DNA of 35,131 nt, from contig NZ_JADYUD010000019.1 in assembly GCF_021531595.1 (NCBI RefSeq), forward strand, positions 1-35,131, given 5' to 3'. The stretch is from Fusobacterium perfoetens (GTDB lineage Bacteria > Fusobacteriota > Fusobacteriia > Fusobacteriales > Fusobacteriaceae). Positions 683 to 4,656 of this stretch are shown one piece after another. The translations under genes were made by a program, and so were the position numbers. The notes below the pieces were generated by a model. It searched no databases. It was not told where the DNA came from and saw only the letters and a list, made by a program, of their open reading frames with translations. How positions within the stretch are numbered: position 1 is the first letter of the stretch; each line of letters starts with the position of its first letter.

Positions 683-1960
683 CTACATATCAATTTTATC
701 CAGTTCTTTGAAATTTTTACTATTTCTAAAAGTTATAGACCCTATTATTCCTAAAAAACCTATAAAAATATATAATAAGGCTATAGAAAGTTCTTGATTA
801 TTTTTTCCTAAAAAAGATAAATTTTTCATTAATGAATAATTATCTTTTATGATTGGATAAAATATAAAATCATTCAAAACTCCTGATAAAAAAATTCCAA
901 CTGGTAAAAATAAATATTGAATTGTATTTCTAGCTGAAAAAACTCTTCCTTGTAGTTCTATTGGTATTCTTACTCTTGTTAAATAATCTACATTTGCAAG
1001 AAGTAATGGAACTAAAATATTTCCTAAAAATATACCTAGAACCCAAATTATATAATTTTTTCCTATGCCTAAAGAGAAATTACAAACTCCAAAAGAAAAA
1101 ATCATTATATTTGTTAAAAGTACACTATAATTTTTAAATTTTGGAAAAAATTTAAGGAGCATACTTCCAACAAGACCTGCTATTCCAATCATACTGGTAA
1201 CTATTCCTAATTGAAAATCATTATTACCATTTCTTAATAAAACCATTGGAGCAAGAGCTGTTGAGTATATTCCATAGACTAGATTTATAAATCCCATAAA
1301 GAAAATCAAAGTAAGAATATCTTTCATTGAAAGTAGATATTTTATTCCTAATATAAAATCATTTATAAATCTTTCTTTTTTATCAGAAATTTGTAACTTT
1401 GGAATCTTAACAAAAATTATCAATGTTAAATATGCAAATATAAAAGTCATCAAATCTATTATAATTATAACTTTTAATCCCCAAAGAGCATAAATAGAAA
1501 CTGATAAAATAGGAACAAATATATCTAAAAAAGATTTAAAAAAAGAACGAATACCACTTGTCTTTATATAATCTTTTTTTGAAACAATTAAAGAAATTAC
1601 AACTTCTGATGTAGGAGCTTGAAAAGAATCAGCAATTCCTAATAGAATATTTATTATAAAAATATACTGGAATTTAAGTTTTCCAAAAATCAAAAGTATA
1701 AGAGTTACAAAAGATAATACTCCTGCAAAAGAATCAGAAACTTTTAAAACTGTTTTTTTATCCCACTTATCACTTAAAGTTCCTGCTATAAAATTAAATA
1801 AAATCTCTGGAACTAAATAACAAAGTGTTACTAAAGATGTATAAAAAACAGAATTTGTTGTTTTATAAATCCATAGTGTAAAACCATAACTTGTCATTCT
1901 GCTTCCAAATTGAGAAACAAATTGTCCTATTATAAAGATATAAAAATTTTTTAATGTCAT
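683..1960 (-). CDS. MFS exporter, macrolide-efflux (Mef)-like
   Basis: A 425-residue major facilitator protein with about 12 hydrophobic segments, expected in the inner membrane as a proton-driven exporter. The diagnostic MFS motif A loop after TM2 is present as GTLSDKWDKK (residues 60-69). The N-terminal pattern (FGSRMTSYGFTLWIY) and overall length resemble the Mef/enterobactin-exporter branch that pumps out macrolides and other hydrophobic compounds. That branch assignment is from memory of the family, and the true substrate is unknown. The start is set by AAAGGAG at 1971-1977, 10 bases before the ATG. The gene is preceded by its own promoter, a 15-codon leader ORF and a terminator-like hairpin, so drug-responsive attenuation is likely (see separate entries). 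It is monocistronic. Confidence 0.85.
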   Translation of the reverse strand: MTLKNFYIFIIGQFVSQFGSRMTSYGFTLWIYKTTNSVFYTSLVTLCYLVPEILFNFIAGTLSDKWDKKTVLKVSDSFAGVLSFVTLILLIFGKLKFQYIFIINILLGIADSFQAPTSEVVISLIVSKKDYIKTSGIRSFFKSFLDIFVPILSVSIYALWGLKVIIIIDLMTFIFAYLTLIIFVKIPKLQISDKKERFINDFILGIKYLLSMKDILTLIFFMGFINLVYGIYSTALAPMVLLRNGNNDFQLGIVTSMIGIAGLVGSMLLKFFPKFKNYSVLLTNIMIFSFGVCNFSLGIGKNYIIWVLGIFLGNILVPLLLANVDYLTRVRIPIELQGRVFSARNTIQYLFLPVGIFLSGVLNDFIFYPIIKDNYSLMKNLSFLGKNNQELSIALLYIFIGFLGIIGSITFRNSKNFKELDKIDM

Positions 1961-1990
1961 ATTAACTTTACTCCTTTTATTTTATTTTTT

Positions 1991-2073
1991 ATAAAAAGTG
2001 CAAAGTTAATTTATTAAACTCTGTACAAATCTAATTAAAATTAACTTTGCACAGAGTAAATACAATGCAAAGT
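1991..2073 (-). promoter_or_regulatory. Predicted attenuator with competing hairpins upstream of the MFS exporter
   Basis: On the minus strand five segments can pair in exclusive ways. A (2066-2073, ACTTTGCA) lies in the leader ORF. B (2040-2057) contains GTGCAAAGTTAAT. C is 2018-2029. D (1998-2010) is ATTAACTTTGCAC. E (1961-1969) lies between the exporter's Shine-Dalgarno and start. B pairs with D over 13 bases, followed at once by TTTTTAT, which is a terminator. B can instead pair with C (12 pairs, one G-U) or with A (8 pairs). If D is freed it can pair with E (9 pairs) next to the start codon. The pairings are seen directly; the regulatory mechanism is inferred. Confidence 0.7.
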
Positions 2074-2078
2074 CTCAT
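2031..2078 (-). CDS. 15-residue leader peptide upstream of the MFS exporter
   Basis: A short ORF reading MRLCIVFTLCKVNFN and a TAG stop, between the promoter and the exporter gene. Its ribosome binding site is excellent (AAGGAGG at 2086-2092, 7 bases before the ATG), which is what makes it credible. It overlaps segments A and B of the predicted attenuator, so a ribosome moving through or stalling in it would change which hairpin forms. Leader peptides of macrolide resistance genes (Erm, Mef/Msr types) work this way, and some carry an MRL-type arrest motif; this peptide begins MRL. The similarity is suggestive only. No protein function of its own is expected. Confidence 0.65.
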   Translation of the reverse strand: MRLCIVFTLCKVNFN

Positions 2079-2128
2079 TTTTACTCCTCCTTTTTTATAG
2101 TAAATTATGTATATCTTCCTATATAGCT

Positions 2129-2157
2129 ATTATATAAACATTTAAAAAGAAAAGCAA
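2129..2157 (-). promoter_or_regulatory. Sigma-70-type promoter of the leader peptide and MFS exporter
   Basis: On the minus strand, TTGCTT (2152-2157) and a perfect TATAAT (2129-2134) are separated by exactly 17 bases. Transcription would begin near 2122, giving roughly 44 bases of RNA before the leader ORF. Confidence 0.7.
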
Positions 2158-3823: not shown

Positions 3824-4656
3824 CTATTTTTCTTTTGGATCATCAAATCCCACAATCATTACAAGAACAGCAGGAACAATTACTGCAAGAGCAGAACCAA
3901 TTACCATTCCTATAAATCCTGTTGTATTATTAGGATTTATTGCATTTACTATTGTAAGTATTCCAGGAAGTCCAGCATAAGCATAATAAACTGTACCAAA
4001 GAAACTCATAACAGCAGCTGATATTGCTCCACCTACACAAGCACATATAAATGGTTTTTTAAGGCGAAGTGTAACTCCATAAAGTGTTGGCTCAGTAATT
4101 CCAAATATTCCTGTAATACTTGCCGAAATAGCAACTTTTTTAAGTTCTTTATTTTTTGATTTAAAGAAACAACCTATTGCAGCACCAATTTGAGCTATTA
4201 CAGCTAAAGTCTGAAAAGCTTGGAAAGCATCATAACCATACATGCTAAAATTTGCCATTACCATCGGAGTTATTCCCCAATGAACTCCAAAGATTACAAA
4301 TATTTCCCATAATCCCCCAATTAAAACTGCCCCTAGTATAGGTGCTTTTTCCATTAAAATGTTTTGATGCAGTTATTCCTATTAAAACAGGTAGAAATGC
4401 AAAAGGTGTCCAAGATATGAAGCTTAATATTTCATATGTCCCTGTTGAAGCAAATTCAGGATAAAAAAGATTTGTTAAGATTAAAATTCCTTGTAAAATT
4501 CCGGCTGCTGCAAAAATATAGATAAAAGGAGCAAAAACAGCTGACATTGTAGCTATCACTCTATTTAATAGTAGCATTTATAATATTCTCTTTTCCTCCA
4601 ACTTCACGAATAATATCCTCTGCAAGTTTTGGATAATCTCTTTTTACTTGAGCCAT
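3824..4656 (-). pseudogene. Degenerate beta-glucoside PTS permease EIIBC (two internal deletions)
   Basis: The remains of a PTS permease in the glucose/beta-glucoside superfamily that would import and phosphorylate a beta-glucoside. Three pieces survive. Piece 1 (4561-4656) starts with a good GGAGGT site and encodes 31 residues of EIIB ending KENIINAT, just before where the HCATRLR phosphocysteine motif should be, then stops. Piece 2 (about 4345-4577) encodes the first EIIC membrane segments (RVIATMSAVFAPF to ASKHFNGK). Piece 3 (3824 to about 4350) resumes in another frame at KAPILGAVLIGG and includes the EIIC motif GITEP. Compared with the intact ScrA in this window, about 75 EIIB/linker residues and about 115-125 central EIIC residues are missing, both with frame changes. 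It cannot be functional without its cysteine. No EIIA domain is present. Confidence 0.85.

Follow-up and report, generated by a model that had tools for sequence, protein, structure and literature searches.

A conserved leader-peptide switch before a Mef-related exporter of Fusobacterium perfoetens, likely a drug-responsive translational attenuator of a family found across Clostridia

The window analysed here is the whole of a 35,131-nucleotide stretch of Fusobacterium perfoetens DNA (contig NZ_JADYUD010000019.1), part of a 2.06-Mb genome, and it carries on its minus strand a gene for an MFS exporter preceded by a compact leader element. The initial annotation, made from the letters alone, had described a promoter, a 15-codon ORF with its ribosome-binding site and five segments (A to E) with mutually exclusive pairings, all of which were found where they had been placed, as was the pairing of D with E, a long stem beside the exporter start. 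The features are the following:

2129..2157, minus strand: promoter-like site TTGCTT-17-TATAAT, read from the sequence, with a weak -35 and a perfect -10
2157-2152, minus strand: -35 element TTGCTT, consensus match 3/6
2134-2129, minus strand: -10 element TATAAT, perfect, 17-nt spacer from the -35
2092-2086, minus strand: Shine-Dalgarno (SD) site AAGGAGG of the leader ORF, read from the sequence, with an SD at the same place in relatives
2031..2078, minus strand: leader ORF MRLCIVFTLCKVNFN, 15 codons plus TAG (start ATG 2078-2076, stop TAG 2033-2031), from the sequence and from codon statistics in relatives
2073-2066, minus strand: segment A ACUUUGCA, pairing with B in the window, weakly conserved
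2057-2038, minus strand: segment B ACUCUGUGCAAAGUUAAUUU, leader codons 8-14, partner of A, C or D
2029-2018, minus strand: segment C UUUGUACAGAGU, partner of B over 12 bp
2012-1998, minus strand: segment D AAAUUAACUUUGCAC, partner of B (predicted ON state) or E (predicted OFF state)
1997-1993, minus strand: run of five U directly 3' of D, pairing in D:E with the exporter SD region
1961..1978, minus strand: segment E AAAAGGAGUAAAGUUAAU, holding the exporter SD (AGGAG, 1975-1971) and spacer, sequestered by D; its end at 1961 abuts the exporter ATG (1960)
683..1960, minus strand: MFS exporter, 425 aa, TIGR00900-like, Mef-related

The promoter-like site was not listed by a consensus promoter scan because its -35 element matches at only three of six positions. 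Segment A lies inside the leader ORF and forms 8 bp with B; B:C comprises 12 bp including one G-U pair; B:D comprises 13 bp, extendable to 15, and encloses a loop of about 25 nt; and the exporter gene begins 70 nt past the leader stop. Upstream of the leader, on the same (minus) strand, lies a gene for a GH1 6-phospho-beta-glucosidase, and at 2190-2250, just upstream of the promoter-like site, a hairpin (CUGAAAGG...CCUUUCAG) is followed by six U. This hairpin probably terminates the glucosidase operon, in which case the exporter would form a separate transcription unit. At 3824-4577 the gene for a beta-glucoside PTS EIIC component is split into two short ORFs that overlap (176 and 110 aa), and it looks frameshifted or truncated since these match separate parts of one enzyme. 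The NCBIfam Mef(A) profile matches the window exporter with E=1.3e-24, at 87 bits against the curated NF000245 cut-off of 675; on these profile scores the protein is only a distant Mef relative, outside the Mef macrolide exporters proper. The initial view that an MFS exporter is preceded by a leader-peptide attenuator is retained, with the exporter described as related to Mef and not as Mef itself.

A search of genome contigs with a single window protein gave no match for related loci, and a leader pattern scan was therefore used, which covered 257 billion bases and returned 36 loci, about 31 of them judged real and nearly all from Clostridia; L038, L045, L050, L052 and L061 were dropped, since they look like chance or coding matches. 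Loci L002, L030 and L031 were picked by the exporter protein alone. L002 comes from a second genome of the genus, where the orthologous exporter (71% identity) is preceded by the leader MKLCIVFTLCKVNFN with the same segments, and the same architecture is seen before exporter relatives from Monoglobus and Subdoligranulum (35-38% identity), whose leaders are MKLCIAEALCKV and MKLCIASAPCKV. The initial annotation had proposed comparing the leader in homologous loci. In 200 genomes from the family of [Clostridium] fimetarium, where loci were chosen by protein only, the 30 best exporter homologs were inspected and 26 carry the element; L106 was truncated, and L111, L120 and L123 showed no such element. 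Five of the 26 form a variant class, of which the leader MLCHIIIDLSVLLCTRSDDRTKLVQR is an example. This class (MLCH...LDVxLCTRS..., in L116, L117, L119, L121 and L122) precedes more distant exporters and has a diverged core, CUCUGUACAAGGUC / GUGCAGAG. The core pattern has a single occurrence in the window itself and was not produced by any of 100 shuffles.

Pairing was assessed on an alignment of 38 distinct sequences, composed of anchored blocks cut from a MAFFT alignment and not fitted to structure. B:C was paired in 97.4% of cells, with 8 double-change cells and compensatory changes at three of its pairs; B:D in 93.1%, with 18 double-change cells; and D:E in 95.4%, with 6, while partners slid by 1-3 columns as a control paired in 24-59%. 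Moreover, own-species duplexes were stronger than swapped ones, with z-scores of -7.8 (B:C), -11.7 (B:D, including the extension beyond the stop codon) and -7.5 (D:E), values to be read with the relatedness of the sequences in mind. B:C, B:D and D:E were thereby shown to be three mutually exclusive, conserved pairings with covariation, and the comparative evidence shows that the element is a conserved, real regulator. A:B, which had been put forward as a further arm of the switch, does not share this conservation: it was paired in 82.6% of cells overall, with just 27% of relatives keeping the pair at one of the eight positions.

The leader is also unusually stable as RNA (fold z-score -4.47; 0/200 shuffles equally stable). 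The minimum-energy fold of the window leader combines B:C with D:E, and not the B:D 'terminator' of the initial annotation; in it, D:E forms a long hairpin in which the U-run is base-paired to the exporter SD region. The effect of a ribosome was computed in 41 leaders by blocking 31 nt (P-15 to P+15, an assumed footprint size) at each codon in turn, by equilibrium folding, which ignores co-transcriptional order. D:E opened at one place only along the leader: its median probability was 0.80 without a ribosome, 0.07 with the P-site at codon 5 and 0.98 at codon 6, returning to about 1 at codon 6 and later. At codon 5, B:D climbed to 0.92 and the SD became more accessible in 34/41 leaders (Wilcoxon p=5e-9); B:D is already high without a ribosome in several relatives (mean 0.46). 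In the window, D:E fell from 0.96 to 0.09 at codon 4 and 0.01 at codon 5; although it was lost at both positions, SD accessibility rose at codon 4 only, and modestly there (0.21 to 0.38; 0.13 at codon 5). With the footprint at window codons 1-3, B:C was formed and the start site was still buried by D:E, which makes this an OFF state; judged from these footprints, the check put forward in the initial annotation, a block of codons 1-6 alone, would leave B:C and D:E formed.

These results can be brought together in a mechanism of the ErmC type. In the classical ErmC scheme, a ribosome stalled early on the leader triggers an alternative pairing which frees the sequestered downstream SD. Attenuation of this type is presented in outline in PMC11264731 and PMC5118997. 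In the window and its relatives a short leader ORF, served by a separate SD, lies upstream, the downstream SD sits in a conserved hairpin (D:E), and the alternative pairing which would free it on stalling is seen in computed folds. Without a ribosome, or with one elsewhere than at P-site codon 4-5, D:E would dominate and the exporter would be OFF. A ribosome with its P-site at codon 4-5 would cover A and the 5' part of B, so that A:B and B:C are lost; the 3' part of B would then capture D, freeing the exporter SD, and B:D would be the ON state. The stall would be caused by a ribosome-targeting antibiotic acting after Met-Arg/Lys-Leu-Cys-Ile, and the exporter would remove the same drug. This drug-dependence is inferred from the Mef-like family of the exporter and from the genes which share the RNA core. 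Taken as a whole, the reading which we consider highly probable is that of an ErmC-type attenuator which responds to a drug at the level of translation, belongs to a Clostridia-wide family and was acquired horizontally together with the exporter. It is most likely worked by a ribosome stalled on the leader, as initially proposed; the proposed route, in which the stall hides A and lets B:C form, was not supported.

That route corresponds to transcription attenuation, in which B:D and the U-run would be an intrinsic terminator, prevented by the B:C pairing which a stall allows. In its favour, the B:D stem of 13-15 bp has a run of five U behind it in the window and a longer one in L002, and the leader peptides MefAL and MsrDL are known transcription attenuators before mefA and msrD (PMC10314930). 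Nevertheless, a run of four or more U follows D in only about 19 of 48 relatives (L046 does have a U-run), the loop is about 25 nt long and no terminator was called at the B:D site, so that a conserved intrinsic OFF-state terminator of the MefAL and MsrDL type was not found. Moreover, B:D is favoured, and not prevented, at the stall position indicated by the folds, and a terminator formed by it would switch the exporter off under the drug; the SD stays buried in D:E when B:C forms. Transcription attenuation is therefore regarded as improbable. Somewhat less so, yet still unlikely, is a dual control, in which translational attenuation would be joined, in the Fusobacteriales copies, by some leaky termination at B:D, or else by Rho-dependent termination when the exporter is untranslated, as in toiL-topAI or vmlR. 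Both Fusobacteriales copies do show 5-7 U after D, vmlR joins a terminator with an SD-sequestering hairpin (PMC9226507) and toiL links SD occlusion to Rho (PMC12121999); however, the polarity of the terminator is opposite to that of stall-driven induction, and the terminator is not conserved across the family.

Leader conservation would also fit a sensor of amino-acid supply, responding for instance to the charging of Cys, Leu or Ile tRNA and not to a drug, since Leu3 and Ile5 are conserved and Cys4 is common. Nevertheless, no amino acid is repeated in a run in the leader, leaders elsewhere in the RNA family differ in frame and composition, and the downstream genes are of exporter, Cfr, kinase and acetyltransferase types and not biosynthetic, which makes this explanation a very improbable one. 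Translational attenuation remains the coherent reading, because a stall favours B:D and opens D:E and because most relatives lack the U-run.

The sensor peptide follows the consensus M[KR]LCI[AV]. In 21 loci chosen by the exporter protein (including L062, which was first found by pattern but served as query of the protein search), Leu3 was present in 21/21, with all six Leu codons used, and Ile5 likewise in 21/21; codon 6 was Ala, Val or Gly with one Asp, and codon 7 was free. The conserved part of the peptide thus stops at the codon which would occupy the A-site in the stall demanded by the RNA, and the conserved codons 8-12 need no explanation at the peptide level, since they are segment B. 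Among loci chosen by the RNA core alone, Leu3 was found in 31/40 and Ile5 in 28/40, so that the peptide is a frequent and not a universal signature. The initial annotation had pointed to the MRL-type leader motifs; the Arg-X-Arg (+x+; Arg/Lys-X-Arg/Lys) stall-site motif of this RLR class is absent from the window (MRLC) and from relatives (MKLC, MILC, MLLA etc.). The chloramphenicol/oxazolidinone context rule (Ala/Ser/Thr at codon 8) was also considered and rejected as evidence, because B:C constrains two of the three bases of that codon and a stall there would hide B.

The RNA core, CUCCAUGCAAAG / UGCAUGGAG / CUUUGC / SD, is not confined to exporters. A core-only search pattern, CTCYRTGCARRGYYN{2,32}TGYAYRGAGN{10,40}CTTTGC, matched 28/392, 20/295 and 8/291 genomes in three sampled groups, drawn evenly and not exhaustively, and the reversed pattern gave no match in the same samples; a slightly narrower pattern had three matches in viral contigs. 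The core-bearing set amounts to 58 distinct loci, of which about 35 precede an MFS exporter, 12 a protein of the CD3324 family (NF040785 in the single case tested) and seven (L126-L131 and L156) a ceramidase-like protein with a weak PF04734 match, below cut-off. In addition, the core precedes a Cfr-family 23S rRNA methyltransferase in L160 (599 bits, above the cut-off of 530), a SpoU methylase in L153, an APH-family kinase in L152 and, by eye, a GNAT-like protein in L174.

Segment B is read in three frames in this set: the APCK frame before exporters and ceramidase-like genes, the LHAK frame before cfr (MNNCKIAVTHDKLHAK...) and before CD3324 genes (MCxNxKRKNDVxLHAKPV), and the SMQS frame before APH and GNAT genes. 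The switch point lies at the same distance in both frame groups tested, with the P-site about 9-12 nt before B. The use of several reading frames and the shared switch distance argue strongly for an exchangeable peptide and for conservation of B at the RNA level. It is accordingly probable that a modular family of stall switches exists, in which a shared RNA core is combined with interchangeable sensor peptides in any frame and with unrelated genes directed against ribosome-targeting drugs; in such a design, the exchangeable peptide would set the drug specificity, and the shared RNA would do the switching.

Several members of the set call for separate description. The Cfr-family protein of L160 is 58% identical to Cfr(C), its leader is MNNCKIAVTHDKLHAKPGCAGGLCME, and its core lies at 1500 (match orientation) with the gene about 40 nt past it; on the plasmids examined, the switch was absent before cfr(A), cfr(B) and cfr(C). 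The ceramidase-like loci share the leader MRLTI[AV]F[ST]PCKV.... The CD3324-family switch loci are L132, L137, L140, L141, L145, L149, L154, L158, L159, L161, L170, L173 and L187, where the CD3324 genes code for small proteins and are followed in several loci by putative modifying enzymes, namely a Vat-like acetyltransferase, a GNAT protein, an alpha/beta hydrolase or a protein with no NCBIfam match; the Vat-like acetyltransferase behind the CD3324 gene in L140 scores 245 bits against a cut-off of 300. These gene contents suggest that the CD3324 loci are drug-responsive operons. Finally, the pattern-selected loci L034 and L047 hold PF00756 esterases under a switch with an M[KR][LF]CIV leader, and these are candidate drug-cleaving enzymes.

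Compared with ermCL-ermC, the present element shares the short leader ORF, the hairpin-sequestered downstream SD and the alternative pairing upon an early stall. It differs in that an extra segment C competes for B and B lies inside the leader ORF, while the sequences are unrelated, the peptide is M[KR]LCI[AV] instead of that of ErmCL and the gene controlled is an MFS exporter. In mefAL-mefA and msrDL-msrD of the streptococcal Mega element, a leader peptide likewise stands before a Mef-type MFS exporter and a drug-stalled ribosome is involved (PMC10314930); however, MefAL (MTASMRLR) carries the +x+ motif and acts by transcription attenuation, whereas neither this motif nor a conserved terminator is found here. 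The vmlR leader of Bacillus subtilis has a uORF, alternative structures and an SD-sequestering hairpin (PMC9226507), but its uORF is a tripeptide, an intrinsic terminator is one of its main arms and it controls an ABC-F protein. In toiL-topAI of E. coli a stall on the uORF opens an SD-sequestering structure and control is also exerted on translation (PMC12121999), although this is a toxin-antitoxin pair from another bacterial group, with no sign of the present core.

Neither the leader of the window nor those of 20 related loci matched any Rfam 15 family above the gathering threshold, with one unrelated S10-Clostridia match elsewhere in L036, and permissive E-values added only chance microRNA/snoRNA matches; comparison of the leader DNA with plasmids gave only short chance matches. 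No description of the peptide, the motif or the RNA family was found in the open-access literature, to which this search was confined. While leader-peptide attenuation is a known principle, novelty appears to lie in the RNA family, in a design that does not depend on frame and in its occurrence before unrelated resistance-type genes of gut bacteria. If the interpretation is correct, several per cent of Clostridia hold a hidden, shared layer of control over intrinsic drug resistance; uncharacterised exporters, kinases, hydrolases and CD3324 proteins are marked as likely responders to ribosome-targeting antibiotics; and a natural series of sensor peptides becomes available for work on the reading of nascent chains by drugs. 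It would, moreover, show an exporter and its switch moving jointly from Bacillota into Fusobacteria.

Regarding this last point, the simplest account of the compared sequences is that switch and exporter were horizontally transferred together from Bacillota to Fusobacteria. The exporter tree places the two Fusobacteriales proteins inside a group formed by those of Clostridium and Lachnoclostridium (Bacillota) with 99/96 support, and the leader is present in only 2/98 Fusobacteriota genomes. The two Fusobacteriales copies stand in different gene contexts, and the G+C content of the region is 19-23%, against 25-34% in the rest of the window.
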